Positions 18,787-26,416 of a DNA stretch of 34,790 nt are shown in pieces (position 1 is the first letter of the stretch; each line of letters begins with the position of its first letter). The notes under the pieces were generated by a model. That model ran no database searches. It was not told where the DNA came from and was given only the letters and a program-made list of their open reading frames with translations. Source of the DNA: Nitrospiria bacterium (GTDB lineage: Bacteria > Nitrospirota > Nitrospiria > JACQBZ01). The DNA lies in contig DATIYJ010000055.1 in assembly GCA_035517655.1 (NCBI GenBank), positions 1 to 34,790 on the forward strand, given 5' to 3'. The translations under genes were made by a program, and so were the position numbers.

Positions 18787-19575
18787 TCAGGAATGGGGTC
18801 GGGCGGTATCCGGGCGGCTTCCGGTAATTAACACAACGGTTACATTATCATCCCCTCCTTTATGGTTGGCCAGATCGATCAACCGTTGACAGGCGGCCTG
18901 AGGTTTCGCAAGGAGTTCGGGACCGTTCATGCGCAATTCTTCATCGGTCAAAAGATTGCTCAGACCGTCCGAACAAAGGAGAAGAGCGTCGCCTTCCATG
19001 AGCGGCACGGACTTTACGTCCACCTCGACTTTCATGCTGCTGCCGAGCGCCCGCGTGATCACGTGCTTCAACGGGTGTTGATTGGCTTCGTCGATTTTGA
19101 GCAGTCCTTGTTGGATGTAGTCGTTAATCAGCGAATGGTCCTCCGTCAATCGGTCGACCCGGCCGTTCCGAAACAGGTAAGCCCGGCTGTCGCCGACGTG
19201 GGCGACATACGCGGTGTCCTGGTCGACCAGAACGGCGACCATGGTGGTTCCCATTCCGTTCAGCTTCGGATTGGCCCGGCTGGACTGAAAGATTTTCTCA
19301 TTGGCCAAGTGCCCGGCCGCCACCAGCCGTCGGACCGGCAAGGGGAGGTTTCGGTCGATATCGGCCGGCCAGGTCACTTCGGAGGATTGGACGCTTGTCC
19401 GCATGAACTCATGCATGATGTCGACCGCCATGTGACTTGCGATCTCCCCCGCGGCATGGCCGCCCATGCCGTCGGCCACGATGAAGAACTGGAGGTCCTG
19501 AATAACGGCCCAAGCATCTTCGTTCGATGAGCGTACGCGTCCGACATCCGATTGGCCGAAAGCTTTAATCTGCAT
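18787..19575 (-). CDS. PP2C-type serine/threonine protein phosphatase
   Basis: The 262-residue protein has the PP2C metal-binding motifs SNEDAW, VADGMGGHAAGEIASHMAV, GMGTTMVAVLV, AHVGDSRAYLFR, CSDGLSNLL and GGDDNVTVVLI, which coordinate the Mn/Mg centre. Bacterial enzymes of this type reverse Hanks-type kinase phosphorylation or act in stress partner-switching. No kinase gene is in the window. ATG 19575 (MQIKAFGQSDVG) is the family start; an upstream frame to 19617 would begin over promoter-like sequence. The gene follows dinB on the same strand with a 79-base gap. Confidence 0.93.
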   Translation of the reverse strand: MQIKAFGQSDVGRVRSSNEDAWAVIQDLQFFIVADGMGGHAAGEIASHMAVDIMHEFMRTSVQSSEVTWPADIDRNLPLPVRRLVAAGHLANEKIFQSSRANPKLNGMGTTMVAVLVDQDTAYVAHVGDSRAYLFRNGRVDRLTEDHSLINDYIQQGLLKIDEANQHPLKHVITRALGSSMKVEVDVKSVPLMEGDALLLCSDGLSNLLTDEELRMNGPELLAKPQAACQRLIDLANHKGGDDNVTVVLITGSRPDTARPHS

Positions 19576-19597
19576 CGCCACGCACCCGTTATAACAT

Positions 19598-19628
19598 ATT
19601 ATAATGCGCCGGATCAATTCCGGAATTG
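19598..19628 (-). promoter_or_regulatory. Candidate promoter and 14-bp palindrome upstream of PP2C gene
   Basis: A perfect TATAAT on the minus strand (19598-19603) lies about 23 bases before the PP2C ATG. There is no good -35; instead a perfect 14-base palindrome CAATTCCGGAATTG occupies 19615-19628, where an activator or repressor could bind. This is a suggestion only. Confidence 0.35.
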
Positions 19629-19654: not shown

Positions 19655-20875
19655 TCAATGATATTCCCGCACGCCCTTTGGCCTCCAGGCGGGAGAGATC
19701 ACGGCCTTGTGAGGATGGCCGGCGATCAATGTGCCCCAGCGGACGGTCCGCTCGCCGTACCGATCGTTGATTCCATCCATCGTCGCGAGCAGTCGGTTGC
19801 GCCGCCGTTCTGTTTCAAACAACGGAAGCTGTCCTGTATCCGGGATCAATCCGGACAGGCCGACGCCGACCAAACGGACCGCCTGCTCCAACCGGACGGT
19901 CCCAAGGATCCGTCGCGCCGCAAGAAAGATTTCCAACCCGTCGTTCAAAAACGATTTGAGCCGGCGCCGGCGGCTGAACGTTTGAAAGTCCGCATATCGA
20001 AGCGTCAGCGTCACGACGTTTCCCCGGTAACGGTTCCGACGCGCGCGCCGGCCGACCATCTCGGCGAGCTCGATCAGGGGGCGTTCGATCTCGCCCGCCC
20101 GGCGGAGATCGCGCGGCAGCGTCATACTGTGGCCGATCGACTTGGCTTCCGGTTCTTCCCCGCTCGGGACGACCGGACGGTCATCTTGTCCCAGGCCCAT
20201 GGCCTTCAGGGAGTAACCGATGATTCCGAAGCGGCCGATCAACCGTTCAACGGGAGCCCTTCCCAACTGGCCGCAGGTCCGGATCTCCATGTCGGCCAAG
20301 GCCCGGTCCAGATTGGGGCCGATTCCGCAGAGCGCCTTCACGGGGAGGTCTTCGAGCAGGATCGGTACGTCTTTCGGGTCGATCCGGACCAATCCGTCGG
20401 GTTTTTTAAGGCCGCTTCCCAGTTTGGCCAGCGTTTTGTTGGGCGCGATTCCCACCGACGCCGTGAGCTGCATTTCCCGCCGGATCCGGCGTTTGACGGC
20501 CGACGCGATGGCCTCGGCCCCCCCGAAAAGGATCAACGAGCCGGTGATGTCCAGAAAGGCCTCGTCCACGGAGAAGACTTCCACCAGAGGAGTGTAGTGA
20601 AGGAAAATCGTCAAGAGCCGCCGGCTGACGTCGGTGTAGCGTTCGTGATCGCTCGGCACCACGATCAGCGCCGGGCAGAGCGCCCGGGCCTCCGGGAGCG
20701 TCATGCCGGTCTTGACGCCGTAGGCCCGGGCCTCGTACGAGGCCGTCAGCACGACGGTGCGGGCGTTGGCGCCGCAGACCGCGATCGGTTTGCCCCGGAG
20801 GGCGGGATGGACCCGCTGTTCGACCGAGGCGAAAAAGGCGTCCATGTCGACATGCAGGAGGGTGCGGTCCGTCAT
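19655..20875 (-). CDS. dinB: DNA polymerase IV (Y-family, translesion)
   Basis: The 406-residue Y-family polymerase shows LHVDMDAFFASVEQ (metal ligand D10, steric-gate position F15) and FSVDEAFLDITG (D104, E105). It also has the thumb GLKKPDGLV and ALCGIGPNLD helix-hairpin-helix, and a little-finger domain. The clamp-binding motif QLPLF lies at 349-353. About 50 residues follow the clamp motif (NRLLATMDGINDRYGERTV), a tail I recall from many Pol IV homologues. It sits in a minus-strand run headed by lexA, consistent with an SOS role. Confidence 0.95.
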   Translation of the reverse strand: MTDRTLLHVDMDAFFASVEQRVHPALRGKPIAVCGANARTVVLTASYEARAYGVKTGMTLPEARALCPALIVVPSDHERYTDVSRRLLTIFLHYTPLVEVFSVDEAFLDITGSLILFGGAEAIASAVKRRIRREMQLTASVGIAPNKTLAKLGSGLKKPDGLVRIDPKDVPILLEDLPVKALCGIGPNLDRALADMEIRTCGQLGRAPVERLIGRFGIIGYSLKAMGLGQDDRPVVPSGEEPEAKSIGHSMTLPRDLRRAGEIERPLIELAEMVGRRARRNRYRGNVVTLTLRYADFQTFSRRRRLKSFLNDGLEIFLAARRILGTVRLEQAVRLVGVGLSGLIPDTGQLPLFETERRRNRLLATMDGINDRYGERTVRWGTLIAGHPHKAVISPAWRPKGVREYH

Positions 20876-20905: not shown

Positions 20906-21511
20906 TCACGGGAGGAGGATCCGGCTCGGGGCGGCCTCCTTTCGGATCGCTTCGGCCACCTCGGGATGGAATTGTTCGATGAATCCCAAGAGGCCCCGCA
21001 GGAACTGGTGCGACTGGAGCCGCCCGTCCAAGAACGACCGGGCCATCTTCAGGTAGGCGTCGACCGCTTCGACGGATGTTTGTGCGCCGATTTCCTTGAC
21101 CAAGGGTTCCATTTCCTTCCAAAGCGCTTCGCCGAAGGGCGACCGGGCCGATTCAGGGAGGGCCAGGGGGCTTAGCCGTCTCCGGAGGTCTTCCATTCCG
21201 GAGATCGCCTCGGCGTCCGTTGCCGTGCCGCGCGGGGCAAACTGCTTGAAGATCACGACCTCCATCACGGAAAGGAGCGTGACCGTCCTTTGATCCTTCA
21301 GCGCCTGGAAAACGCGGACCCGTTCGGCGGAAAAGGTCTGGGCCGTCCGTACGCGCTGATAGCCCTCGTGCGTCGCGAGGTAGACGCAGTCCGAAGGGCA
21401 CGCGATCCGGGTCAACCGGTGCTCTCCGCAGCAGCGCGGACAGATCAAGCCTCCTAACGCCGGGCAGGATCGTTTGCCTTTGGCTTTATGACAGTAAACG
21501 CAGGAAGCCAT
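20906..21511 (-). CDS. Cys-rich putative zinc-binding protein of unknown function
   Basis: I do not recognise a named family. The 201-residue protein starts MASCVYCHKAKGKRSCPALG and has a Cys-rich N-terminus: C4, C7, C16, C24, C27, C28, H31, C38 and C42, suggesting one or two zinc-binding knuckles. The rest (about 50-201) looks helical, with no membrane segment or signal peptide. ATG 21511 is followed directly by the Cys motif. It ends 30 bases before dinB, so the two are probably co-transcribed and it may work with DNA damage tolerance. That link is inference from position only. Confidence 0.75.
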   Translation of the reverse strand: MASCVYCHKAKGKRSCPALGGLICPRCCGEHRLTRIACPSDCVYLATHEGYQRVRTAQTFSAERVRVFQALKDQRTVTLLSVMEVVIFKQFAPRGTATDAEAISGMEDLRRRLSPLALPESARSPFGEALWKEMEPLVKEIGAQTSVEAVDAYLKMARSFLDGRLQSHQFLRGLLGFIEQFHPEVAEAIRKEAAPSRILLP

Positions 21512-21699: not shown

Positions 21700-22959
21700 T
21701 CATAGATTCTCCGGCGACCAGAGATCAAGCTGCGCGGGCTTGATCCGGGGCGATGCCGGGATCAGGGGCCGGCCGTGGAGGAGCAAATATGGCGCGGCGC
21801 GCTTCATCACGACGCCCAGTCGGGTCAAGTGCCGGGCATCGGTGATGACCGAAGAAGGGCGCAGCTCCGCGATTCGTTTGGCCGAGATCGGACCGATCCC
21901 CGGCACGCGCAGCAGCCGCTCGTATTCGACCTTCATAACCTCCAAGGGGAAGAACTCGGGATGGCCCGTCGCCCAGGCCAGCTTCGGATCGACGGCCATG
22001 GGCAGATGGCCGCGGCCGTCAAACACCAGCTCCGAGACCGAAAAACCGTAAAAGCGCATCAGCCAGTCGGCCTGATACAGCCGGTGCTGCCGCAGAAGCG
22101 GGGCGGGCGGAAGATGATCGAGCGGGGTATCCGGAATCGGACTGAAGGCGCTGAAATAAGCCCGACGCAGACCGATTTCCCCGTAGAGCCGATCGGTGGC
22201 GGAGAGCAGGTCCTGATCGGTCTCGCCGGCCGCGCCCACCACAAACTGAGTGATCTGGCCGGCCGGGATCAGGCCGGGATATTCCTGCTTGAGCCGCTTG
22301 ACCCAGACCATTCGGGTGAGCATATCGTCCAGGAAACTTTTTTTGGCCGAGAGCCGTGCGAGATGCTGGGGCGTCGGGGCCTCGAGATTGAGGGAGACGC
22401 GGCTGGCCAGGCGCAGGGTTTGTTCCACTGCCGCGGGGCCGGCCCCCGGCAGGATCTTCAGATGAATGTATCCCTTGAACTCATATCGTTTTCGAAGAAT
22501 CTCGGCCGTCTGGACCATCCGCTCCTGCATCGTATCGATCTTCCGCGTGATGCCGGAGGAGAGAAACAGCCCGTCCACGAACCGTTTCCGGTGGAGCATC
22601 ATAAAAGTCCGGGCCAGCTCTTCCGGGGAAACGTAGGTGCGGGGCACGTCGCGGCTCGCCCGGTGCTCGCAGTAAAAGCAGTCGAACTCGCAGATGTTCG
22701 TCTGGAGAACCTTGAGCAGTCGGACGGTCTTCCCGCCCCCCACCGGGCTGACATGAATGCCGCCGGGAAGACCTGCCTGTCCGGCAGGCAGGAAGCGTTC
22801 GGGCCCCTTCCTCACGGGGTTCCGGTGGCGTTGATCGCGGCCGTCCGGCGCCGTGATGCCTTGCGGGGTAAAGCAGCCGGGGACGGACTGGCCGGCCGAG
22901 AGCTCATGCTCTTGCGCGGCGCCTTCCCCTAGGATCGCGAGTTTTTGGATTGTGTCCAT
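21700..22959 (-). CDS. Putative DNA modification/repair radical SAM protein
   Basis: The 419-residue protein has the radical-SAM cluster motif CEFDCFYC (C90, C94, C97), which holds a 4Fe-4S cluster cleaving S-adenosylmethionine. A C-terminal helix-hairpin-helix VPGIGPISAKRIAEL suggests DNA binding. This matches the family described as a radical SAM protein linked to uracil-DNA glycosylase; its reaction is not known to me. No glycosylase partner is in the window. ATG 22959 follows GAGGAGACGTC. Residues about 55-65 (LPAGQAGLPGG) are encoded by a palindromic repeat, apparently an in-frame insertion between the N-terminal segment and the cluster motif. It belongs to the lexA-to-dinB run. Confidence 0.85.
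   Translation of the reverse strand: MDTIQKLAILGEGAAQEHELSAGQSVPGCFTPQGITAPDGRDQRHRNPVRKGPERFLPAGQAGLPGGIHVSPVGGGKTVRLLKVLQTNICEFDCFYCEHRASRDVPRTYVSPEELARTFMMLHRKRFVDGLFLSSGITRKIDTMQERMVQTAEILRKRYEFKGYIHLKILPGAGPAAVEQTLRLASRVSLNLEAPTPQHLARLSAKKSFLDDMLTRMVWVKRLKQEYPGLIPAGQITQFVVGAAGETDQDLLSATDRLYGEIGLRRAYFSAFSPIPDTPLDHLPPAPLLRQHRLYQADWLMRFYGFSVSELVFDGRGHLPMAVDPKLAWATGHPEFFPLEVMKVEYERLLRVPGIGPISAKRIAELRPSSVITDARHLTRLGVVMKRAAPYLLLHGRPLIPASPRIKPAQLDLWSPENL
22772..22792. repeat. Palindromic repeat element inside the radical-SAM gene
   Basis: CCTGCCTG, five bases, CAGGCAGG: a perfect eight-base inverted repeat inside the coding region, translated in frame as part of LPAGQAGL. I recall very similar elements (coding for AGRQAG-like peptides) recurring in many environmental genomes. 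Confidence 0.6.
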
Positions 22960-22983
22960 GACGTCTCCTCGATCATATCGCTT

Positions 22984-23011
22984 GTAGGGGCGTAGCATGC
23001 TACGCCCCTAC
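22984..23011. repeat. 28-bp perfect palindrome (REP-like)
   Basis: The arm GTAGGGGCGTAGCA is followed directly by its exact reverse complement. It sits in the 102-base spacer between the 82-aa protein gene and the radical-SAM gene. It shares the outer GTAGGGGCG with the element at 26378-26400, so it belongs to a small palindromic repeat family. It has no T-run and is not a normal terminator. Confidence 0.75.
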
Positions 23012-23061: not shown

Positions 23062-23310
23062 TCACATCGGGCTCACGGTCATCAACCTCCAGGAAAGGGC
23101 CGCGGCGTCGTAGGTCAAGTCATAAAGGTTCGCCCCGTCCGTCACTGCGAAGTGATGGAAAACCCGCTGTCCGTCCCGGACTTTCCATGCGAAGGTCACC
23201 CGTTCCACGCTGTATTTGCGGTTGTTCCAGACGAACCATTTCGGAACGACGGTCTTCTCGGGATCAAATACCACGCCCACGGTTACGGATTCTCCGATCT
23301 CGGTGATCAT
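23062..23310 (-). CDS. Small conserved-looking protein downstream of lexA
   Basis: The 82-residue protein MITEIGESVTVGVVFDPEKT... is rich in Trp, Tyr and beta-forming residues, for example PKWFVWNNRKYSVERVTFAW, HHFAVTDGANLYDLTYD and SWRLM. It looks like a small all-beta domain. It resembles, from memory, DUF6504-type proteins found beside error-prone polymerase genes, but this is uncertain. The ATG at 23310 has AAGGGGA upstream and begins 14 bases after the lexA stop, so the two are one operon under LexA control. No signal peptide is present. Confidence 0.8.
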   Translation of the reverse strand: MITEIGESVTVGVVFDPEKTVVPKWFVWNNRKYSVERVTFAWKVRDGQRVFHHFAVTDGANLYDLTYDAAALSWRLMTVSPM

Positions 23311-23324
23311 GATTTCCCCTTCCT

Positions 23325-23996
23325 TCACAATTTTCGTATAATCGCCACGACCTTGCCGAGCACGCGAACCTCTTCCTGGTCCGGTTTCACCACGATCGCG
23401 TTCATCCGGGCGTTCGCCGGCTCCAGCCGGATCGCGTGGCGGTCCTTGTAAAACCGTTTGACCGTGGCCTCGTCGTTTACGAGCGCGACCACGATTTCTC
23501 CGTTGCGCGGCTGGGGATGGGGCCGCACCACGGCCAAGTCGCCCGAATGGATGCCGGCCTCGATCATGCTGTCGCCCGTGACCCGGAGCACAAACGATCC
23601 GGGCGGCGCGAGGCTCCGGTCCAGCCGGAGGTGCTGTTCCGCCTCTTCCGTCGCCAGCAGGGGGGCGCCGGCCCGGACCCGGCCCACCAGCGGCACGACG
23701 ACGGTCGGGGAGGCGCTTTCCCCGGACCACCCGACCACCTCCATCGCGCGGGACAGTCTCGATCGGCGGCGGATGTAGCCCTTGCCCTCCAGGGCGGCCA
23801 GATGTTTCTGCGCGCCTTTGGGTCCCCGCAGACGGAGATGCCGGGCGATTTCCCGCACGGTGGGCGGGAAGCCGTTTTTCTCGCAGCTGTCCTTGATAAA
23901 CGCGAGCACGCGTTCCTGTCGTCGGGTCAGCGCCCGCTCGCCGCGCTCGCGCGGCGGGTCCGTATTTAGCATCGCGGTTTCATGCCGTCGTTTCAT
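23325..23996 (-). CDS. lexA: LexA repressor / autoprotease
   Basis: LexA represses DNA-damage genes and self-cleaves when RecA filaments form. The 223-residue protein has an N-terminal winged helix (about 22-88, LTRRQERVLAFI...GFPPTVREIARHLRL). The cleavage bond is A109-G110 (GRVRAGAP), and the catalytic dyad is S143 (GDSM) and K180 (ATVKRF). The N-terminus is about 20 residues longer than in E. coli. ATG 23996 has no ribosome site because the operator palindrome ends two bases before it, so the message leader would be very short. A later ATG at 23972 is possible but also lacks one. Confidence 0.95.
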   Translation of the reverse strand: MKRRHETAMLNTDPPRERGERALTRRQERVLAFIKDSCEKNGFPPTVREIARHLRLRGPKGAQKHLAALEGKGYIRRRSRLSRAMEVVGWSGESASPTVVVPLVGRVRAGAPLLATEEAEQHLRLDRSLAPPGSFVLRVTGDSMIEAGIHSGDLAVVRPHPQPRNGEIVVALVNDEATVKRFYKDRHAIRLEPANARMNAIVVKPDQEEVRVLGKVVAIIRKL

Positions 23997-23998
23997 TG

Positions 23999-24016
23999 GG
24001 TCTACATTTGTAGACC
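23999..24016. promoter_or_regulatory. Putative LexA operator
   Basis: GGTCTACATTTGTAGACC has perfect eight-base arms around TT. It lies immediately downstream of the lexA -10 and covers the likely transcription start, the classic place for autorepression. The sequence differs from the E. coli, Bacillus and alphaproteobacterial boxes. Confidence 0.8.
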
Positions 24017-24045
24017 ATACTACCCGAATCGAAAGGTCTTGTCAA
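24017..24045 (-). promoter_or_regulatory. lexA promoter
   Basis: Minus-strand TTGACA (24040-24045), exactly 17 bases, TAGTAT (24017-24022). The -10 ends directly at the operator. Only 20 bases separate the -10 from the ATG, giving a leader of about 13 bases. Confidence 0.8.
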
Positions 24046-24108
24046 GCGCCGCAGTAATCCGGGTCTTGTTCCAACGGAGATCGCGCCGTTCTTCGACGGA
24101 AATTTTTA

Positions 24109-24137
24109 TTGACAACGAGGGTTCAATATGATAAAAA
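24109..24137 (+). promoter_or_regulatory. Candidate promoter of the exopolysaccharide cluster
   Basis: TTGACA (24109-24114), 17 bases, TAAAAA (24132-24137), about 178 bases before the beta-barrel gene. The long leader contains small hairpins (TGGAA/TTCCA near 24170 and CCTCA/TGAGG near 24186), but I recognise no known riboswitch; in particular, no cyclic di-GMP riboswitch consensus is apparent. Confidence 0.5.
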
Positions 24138-24314
24138 ACGCAATGAATTTGACTCGGTCCGAAAAATCCTGGAAAGCCTTCCATCCCTCAGTGAGGTCGG
24201 AAACAGTTCAGGGTCGTCCAGTCCCTTGAATCCGTAAGTAAAACGAGGCTAAATCAGACTCCATGCACCACCTCCATTTCTTGCCCCATGATCATTCTCC
24301 AAAGGAGGGCCCGT

Positions 24315-25571
24315 ATGTCCTTTTATCCGTTCCCCGTGGCGTTCCCCGCGGGGGTTTTGATCGTTCTTATTCTGGGTTTTATGGTACTGATGGGATGGTC
24401 CCCGCCGGCGTCGGCGGTCGGGAACCTGCAACTGGGTCCGCTTGAGCTTCATCCGGGCTTTCAGATTTCCGAATCTTATGATGACAACGTTTGCCGGACA
24501 AAGCAGAAGCTCTGTCAGGACCCCCAGGATTCGACCCCCGGCGCGACGAAGGACGGGAAGGACGAGTTTAGCGTCTTCAGCCCGGGGCTCCAGGTCGCGC
24601 TTCCCTTTTTGGGGAACAACCGGTTTGATGCCGAATATCGGGGAGACTTTGGACGGTACAACACGTTTAAGACCGAGAACTACAGCGACAACGACGTGCA
24701 GAGCCATCTGGCGATCCATCTCCCCGTCGGGCTTTCGCTCCGGATGAATGAAGACTGGACCGACGGCCATGACGCTCCCGGCTATGCCCAGAACATCCTG
24801 ATCGATTTCTACCATCGGAACACGGCGGGGGGCGAACTTGGGATGGAGGTCGGACCGAGGCTGCGGATGGCCGTCGATTACACGAATTTGAAACTGAACT
24901 ATGTGGACGACGCCCGGAACGGATTCCGGGACCGGACGGACAACACCGTCGGCGGAACGATTTATTACAAGTTTATGCCGAAAACGTCCGCGCTGCTGGA
25001 GTACGATTATACCGCCGTGAGTTTCGACCGCTTCAACGCCGACTTATTCTCGGTCGACAACCGGGTCCAGCGCGGCTATCTCGGTCTGACCTGGGACGTC
25101 ACCTCGCGGTCGCAGGGGACGGTGAAGGTCGGCTATACCCATAAGAACTTCAAGGAGTCCGACCTCGACAATTTCAAGGGGGGCATCGTCTCGGTCGGCC
25201 TGAGTCATGAACTGACCGCGCGCACCTCGCTGCGCTTCGACGGCGTGCGGGACGTTCAGGAGAGCAACATCGTGAACCAGCCGTACTACCTGACCACCGG
25301 CGGCCGCCTGGAGCTGATCCACCAGATTCATCCCAAGGTTTCATTCAACTTGCGGACCGCGTTCAGTCGGGACCAGTATCCCGACGCCGATCCGGGGCAG
25401 ACCCGGCCGCGGCTGGACGACACCTGGGACACGGGCGCCCGCTTCGAGTACCGTCCCCGGACCTGGCTGAATCTGGGGCTCGGATACGATCATTCCGACC
25501 GTCGTTCGGTCTTTCGTGATTTTGGATATGTGGACAACCTGTACACCTTCAGCGTCGGGGCCGTTCTGTAG
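24315..25571 (+). CDS. Outer-membrane beta-barrel protein of the polysaccharide cluster
   Basis: The 418-residue protein has a signal peptide (hydrophobic core about 8-30, cleavage near PPASA-VGN). The rest is built of alternating amphipathic strands with aromatic ends, for example RFDAEYRGDFGRYNTF, TSALLEYDYTAVSFDRF and GTVKVGYTHKNF, finishing with a typical outer-membrane C-terminus (LYTFSVGAVL). It resembles the outer-membrane beta-barrels found at the head of exopolysaccharide gene clusters. ATG 24315 follows AAAGGAGG with perfect spacing. It probably forms or assists the outer-membrane polymer path with the SLBB protein encoded next. Confidence 0.85.
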   Translation: MSFYPFPVAFPAGVLIVLILGFMVLMGWSPPASAVGNLQLGPLELHPGFQISESYDDNVCRTKQKLCQDPQDSTPGATKDGKDEFSVFSPGLQVALPFLGNNRFDAEYRGDFGRYNTFKTENYSDNDVQSHLAIHLPVGLSLRMNEDWTDGHDAPGYAQNILIDFYHRNTAGGELGMEVGPRLRMAVDYTNLKLNYVDDARNGFRDRTDNTVGGTIYYKFMPKTSALLEYDYTAVSFDRFNADLFSVDNRVQRGYLGLTWDVTSRSQGTVKVGYTHKNFKESDLDNFKGGIVSVGLSHELTARTSLRFDGVRDVQESNIVNQPYYLTTGGRLELIHQIHPKVSFNLRTAFSRDQYPDADPGQTRPRLDDTWDTGARFEYRPRTWLNLGLGYDHSDRRSVFRDFGYVDNLYTFSVGAVL

Positions 25572-26372: not shown

Positions 26373-26377
26373 CGATG

Positions 26378-26400
26378 TAGGGGCGCAATTTATTGCGCCC
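26378..26400. repeat. Palindromic repeat in the SLBB-Wzz spacer (second)
   Basis: GGGCGCAAT, TT, ATTGCGCCC is a perfect nine-base inverted repeat (26381-26400) headed by GTAG, sharing GTAGGGGCG with the element at 22984-23011. It ends 16 bases before the Wzz-kinase gene. Confidence 0.65.
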
Positions 26401-26416
26401 GATCGATGAGGCGAAC

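Follow-up and report, generated by a model that had tools for sequence, protein, structure and literature searches.

A predicted private LexA operator of lineage-specific sequence ahead of a lexA-dinB operon in a Nitrospiria genome

The lexA promoter and the genes behind it

The minus strand of the window (the whole stretch of 34,790 nucleotides analysed) carries lexA, followed by orf82, a radical SAM gene, orf201, dinB and a PP2C-type phosphatase gene (Table 1). The gene order lexA-orf82-(radical SAM)-(orf201)-dinB-PP2C is kept in relatives of the same family, some of which are without the radical SAM gene or orf201, and profile searches returned no family match for either orf82 or orf201. 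The operon structure is proposed from this layout: the 188-nt gap before orf201 could leave room for another promoter, and the PP2C gene would be co-transcribed on the basis of gene order and a 37-nt gap only. Two palindromes of another kind, GTAGGGGCGTAGC-ATGC-TACGCCCCTAC and GTAGGGGCGCAATTTATTGCGCCCCTAC (window 22980-23010 and 26375-26405), overlap the start codons of two genes, one for the radical SAM protein and one for exopolysaccharide chain length, and a similar element, GTAGGGGCG, lies upstream of recA in genome G011; all three probably represent a dispersed element of REP-like type that has come to form the start regions of genes.

Table 1. Positions of the lexA control region and of the genes downstream of it
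Feature	Position	Strand	Remarks
-35 element TTGACA	24040..24045	minus	invariant in five genomes
-10 element TAGTAT	24017..24022	minus	abuts operator; TAnnnT kept at same place in orthologues
LexA operator (predicted) GGTCTACAAATGTAGACC	23999..24016	minus	arms GGTCTACA / TGTAGACC, centre AA; conservation in relatives
lexA	23325..23996	minus	223 aa from first ATG; TIGR00498, 212 bits
Recognition helix, residues 58-66, GPKGAQKHL	23799..23825	minus	aligned to E. coli SPNAAEEHL
orf82	23062..23310	minus	conserved second operon gene; 64-84% identity in four relatives
Radical SAM protein, rSAM_link_UDG-like	21700..22998	minus	TIGR03916, 332 bits, slightly below 343.5 cut-off
orf201	20906..21511	minus	Cys-rich N-terminus; conserved in relatives' operon
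dinB, Y-family DNA polymerase IV	19655..20875	minus	family matches, conserved gene order
PP2C-type Ser/Thr phosphatase	18787..19617	minus	last gene of conserved run

The lexA product contains LexA_DNA_bind and Peptidase_S24 domains that score above the curated cut-offs, can be aligned over its whole length with solved LexA structures and places Ala109-Gly110, Ser143 and Lys180 on the cleavage site and catalytic dyad of the E. coli protein. Ahead of the conserved LTxRQ its N-terminal extension relative to E. coli is ~22 aa (1-6 in orthologues), so the true lexA start may be the ATG at 23972; a comparable extension of 24 residues is present in LexA of Mycobacterium tuberculosis (PMC8607333).

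Upstream of the gene, a strong TTGACA-N17-TAGTAT promoter is followed immediately by GGTCTACAAATGTAGACC and, after 2 nt, by the lexA ATG (23996), a layout that the preliminary description had given accurately to the base. The arms of the palindrome are 8/8 complementary, and the lexA promoter is the sole sigma70-like match (10/12) on both strands of 23300-24320, where shuffles average 0.4. In this GC-rich window, arms of 8 bp do not by themselves make a palindrome unusual (15 found versus 5.3 expected under a dinucleotide model), and the case for an operator therefore rests on position and conservation: the palindrome overlaps the lexA promoter and is conserved together with the gene. It fits neither the E. 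coli-type box CTGT-N8-ACAG nor the Gram-positive box GAAC-N4-GTTC, reading CTAC-N4-GTAG instead of the latter, as had been noted before. It also departs at one specified position (GGTC for GGTT) from the spaced Geobacter motif, which we take to be GGTTN2CN4GN3ACC; this closest of the known boxes had been left out of the earlier comparison.

With transcription predicted to start 6-8 nt past the -10 element, about 13-15 nt would separate the start from the ATG, and this leader is without a Shine-Dalgarno sequence (duplex energy -2.2 kcal/mol), bearing out the earlier claim of a short leader without a ribosome site. The accompanying claim that lexA translation initiation is unusual was overstated, since roughly one third to one half of all starts called in the window pair equally weakly and, in orthologous lexA genes, the distance between box and start is 6-15 nt greater, with AAGGA present in one of them. 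The short leader appears to be real but only mildly unusual.

Conservation of the box and co-variation with the recognition helix

All four relatives in the family (f1) that have an intact lexA (G001, G002, G003 and G005) retain the box just past the -10 element, in the forms AGGACTACAAATGTAGACCT, TAGGTCTACAAATGTAGACCTA, TAGGTCTACATTTGTAGGCCTA and AGGTCTACATATGTAGACCT directly behind TTGACA-N17/18-TAnnnT. Across the five family genomes 14 columns of the 18-bp box are invariant, and the spacer and the upstream DNA diverge. Two natural losses serve as controls: G004 is without lexA, dinB and the box, and in G006, an assembly that is only 69% complete, the DNA-binding half of lexA and the box are gone, with only the C-terminal end left and dinB intact. 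At this remnant (L115, G006:C178, 4900-5830) other sequence replaces the DNA-binding half and the promoter, either through a natural loss of LexA control or through an assembly join.

A LexA paralogue in family f9, whose neighbouring genes differ, is preceded by GAGGTCTACACCTGTAGACTTC, AGGCCTACAGGTGTAGACCT or a TCCACA variant and carries the helix GPMGVKRHL, GPKGAKKHL or DPKGAKKHL; the recognition helix common to it and to the window LexA is GP(K/M)G-x-(Q/K)-(K/R)HL. In a tree of 53 proteins, on which box labels were assigned from palindrome searches and counts are descriptive, this paralogue groups with the window LexA on long branches (support 94/83), pointing to a joint clade of f1 and f9 LexAs that is well but not decisively supported. 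In the neighbouring clades both helix and box differ: GTGAAC pairs with GISAVKKHL, GTGTCC with GHHAVRKHL, GTGTAC with S(P/L)NGVKKHL, GTAGNC with GTRGAEKHL, GTATTC with GTRGAFKHV, and the E. coli-type CTGT-N8-ACAG with SPNAVQEHV and SLQGVKDHL. The CTGT class aside, nearly all boxes fit the frame GT-N3-CA-N2-TG-N3-AC. Taken together, the conserved box, its loss along with lexA and the presence of the same box before a distant LexA that shares the recognition helix argue that the palindrome is very probably the operator of the window LexA, the co-variation of helix and box being the strongest evidence that this protein reads it.

Genomes of this Nitrospirota class contain up to five LexA-family matches each. 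Paralogues at L102, L103, L107, L108, L110 and L112 head differing repair operons that comprise polB with SRAP, imuAB-dnaE2 or a 900-aa DEAD-box helicase. In the genomes of family f2 (L032-L039) the LexA HTH of the SOS-like repressor is replaced by one of XRE type, which is fused to an S24 peptidase, and a palindrome such as TGTAACCATTGGTTACA ends 0-2 bases before the repressor's ATG, leaving almost no leader; we regard this repressor as a LexA of non-canonical type, similar to that of Bacteroidetes.

In families f8 and f9 the -10 element ends 6-10 nt (mostly 9) ahead of the lexA ATG, and CATATG or a close variant of it forms the centre of the operator, which predicts that these lexA genes are leaderless and that their start codon is the centre of their own operator. 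Examples include L011, L012, L015, L017, L024 and L106, among others, with GTAGNCATATGNCTAC or TGGTATTCATATGAATACCA centred on the start codon. The window has an ATG at the same distance from the -10 element, but TAG comes next because of the CTA/TAG arms, and we hypothesize that the specificity change closed this embedded start and pushed the real lexA start downstream.

Targets of the box and alternative readings

Pattern matching over the whole 2.65-Mb genome, with up to 3 mismatches tolerated for the 18-mer, found no second copy of the box. CTAC-N4-GTAG occurs twice, in the window operator and inside tmRNA; the latter copy recurs in relatives and was rejected as a second operator since it is part of tmRNA. 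No box copy precedes recA, recN or any gene beyond its own operon in these searches, so that the box shared by recA and other repair genes that would mark a multi-gene SOS regulon was not found, and the copies that the preliminary description expected upstream of recA, uvrA and dnaE2 are absent from those positions. That description had taken a lack of enrichment before DNA-damage genes to speak against its reading. Literally such a lack is what we see, yet we retain the box as LexA's because it co-evolves with the window LexA across genomes and heads the lexA-dinB operon. Of the lineage-specific SOS box once envisaged, the LexA operator with a lineage-specific sequence is supported and the genome-wide SOS regulon sharing it is not supported.

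Judged from these searches, the operator appears private to lexA-orf82-radicalSAM-orf201-dinB(-PP2C), and weak or degenerate secondary sites with four or more mismatches may exist in the genome. The recA upstream region of six family members carries another conserved inverted repeat, ACCGTTCA...TGAAC, also in the lexA-less G004, and recA is probably under a different regulator or has a promoter of an unusual type. This repeat, ACCGTTCAYCC-N~11-RTGAAC, is unrelated to the LexA box (G000:C30 recA L082, L146; L076, L077, L079, L081, L084). Near recA, a 7/8 match of E. coli-like or GAAC-like type is not conserved and was dismissed as chance.

These data bear directly on the possibility that the box, while being LexA's, marks no more than the strongest of the sites in an ordinary wide SOS regulon, in which recA and other genes carry degenerate copies missed by patterns. 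Degenerate LexA boxes are known elsewhere, as in Leptospira (PMC3789691), but the lack of any 18-mer within 3 mismatches, a number of 14-mer matches at 2 mismatches that is below that of a reversed-pattern control (8 versus 31 per strand) and the different repeat at recA, even where lexA is missing, make this unlikely. The site might also be bound by another regulator or by a second LexA (G000:C6:60772) instead of the neighbouring one, as two LexAs coexist in the genome and Leptospira LexA1 cross-binds lexA2 (PMC3789691). However, the helix of the second LexA is E. coli-like (SPNAVQEHV), an E. coli-type box of its own, CTGTATGAAATTACAG, exactly fills its promoter spacer, and G002, G003 and G005 keep the CTAC box with one LexA only, which renders such binding highly improbable. 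We attach still smaller weight to the idea that the inverted repeat works as a hairpin in the lexA leader RNA, for attenuation or for control of translation: the RNA could fold (z = -2.9), but the left arm of the repeat abuts the -10 element and lies mostly upstream of any normal transcription start, a promoter geometry on which we rejected this reading. Moreover, the repeat has no Rfam match and its variation tracks DNA half-site symmetry and the protein helix.

Six other exact CTGT-N8-ACAG sites in the genome are mostly inside genes, one being a terminator-like hairpin; not being promoter-like, they were rejected as a LexA1 regulon, and the E. coli-type box seems confined to the promoter of the second LexA itself. 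At that locus (L104, 6749-9614; G000:C6:60.7-63.6 kb) the genes downstream of the second lexA are one for an AlbA_2 (Schlafen) protein, an unknown one and one for a relative of PDC-M30A, a candidate defence protein. The locus could constitute a LexA-controlled, defence-like operon, possibly acquired.

A model for the operator and its relation to known LexA systems

The reading that accommodates the site, its promoter, its conservation and co-loss with lexA, the matching helix and the uniqueness of the box is that the LexA encoded immediately downstream regulates its own gene through the palindrome, which would be a private operator, the regulon of this LexA extending little or not at all beyond its own operon and leaving out recA, and we hold this reading with high confidence. 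Drawing on known LexA biology for binding, repression, cleavage and induction, we propose that a LexA dimer on GGTCTACA-N2-TGTAGACC, spanning the edge of the -10 element to past the predicted transcription start, would block RNA polymerase. DNA damage would lead to RecA filaments and to self-cleavage of LexA at Ala109-Gly110, upon which lexA, orf82, the radical SAM gene, orf201 and dinB would be expressed together. The change in specificity would consist of GA to CT at half-site positions -6/-5 relative to the GGTGAACA box of a sister family, matched by the helix GPKGAQKHL.

The known box closest in frame belongs to Geobacter sulfurreducens; it is cited as GGTT-N10-AACC (PMC8565304) and shares with the window box the outer GGT, the C-N4-G centre and the ACC at the far edge. 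The two are one symmetric base pair per arm apart, the fourth position changing from T to C and its counterpart in the other arm from A to G (GGTC..GACC for GGTT..AACC). Geobacter is reported to have two autoregulated LexAs that do not bind recA (Jara et al. 2003, ref 63 in PMC8565304); it belongs to a different phylum, however, and the second LexA of the Nitrospiria genome uses a wholly different box. The Gram-positive GAAC-N4-GTTC has the same frame as the window box, with C at -3 and A at -4 of each half-site, but the window has CT for GA at -6/-5; a box in the Gram-positive frame, GGTGAACATTTGTTCACC, is found in the sister genome G008. Similar to the window LexA, that of Pseudomonas putida lexA2-imuA-imuB-imuC heads a mutagenesis operon from a private, divergent palindrome, and Leptospira interrogans LexA2 has a divergent palindrome only at its own promoter, heading its own transcript. 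In contrast to both, the LexA with the private box is here the family's conserved copy, its cargo is radical SAM plus dinB, and the copy that looks acquired is the second one, of E. coli type.

LexA changes its binding site unusually often, gene duplication being the accepted route, and duplication, divergence and take-over form an established model (PMC8565304). An operator at one promoter fits the known pattern of LexA copies with separate private targets. For the class as a whole, we tentatively suggest, as a possibility we would place slightly short of even, that LexA radiated into co-existing insulated repressors, each with its own helix, operator and repair operon (dinB with radical SAM, imuAB-dnaE2, polB with SRAP, DEAD-box helicase or defence genes), that several operators are centred on a leaderless lexA start and that the CTAC change created ATG-TAG and moved the start downstream, which would account for the oddly short leader. 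The operator sequence, the genes it controls and the diversity of LexA-operator pairs in a single bacterial class appear to be new: the literature covered on LexA in Nitrospira, Nitrospirae, Nitrospirota and Leptospirillum yielded nothing relevant, and a prior report may exist, two key motif papers lying outside that coverage. The matched series of helices and operators in close relatives, and even within one genome, could make the helix-to-site code readable and directly testable. The findings also suggest that two LexAs can coexist in a nearly complete genome without having an SOS regulon in common, and with recA controlled in another way.
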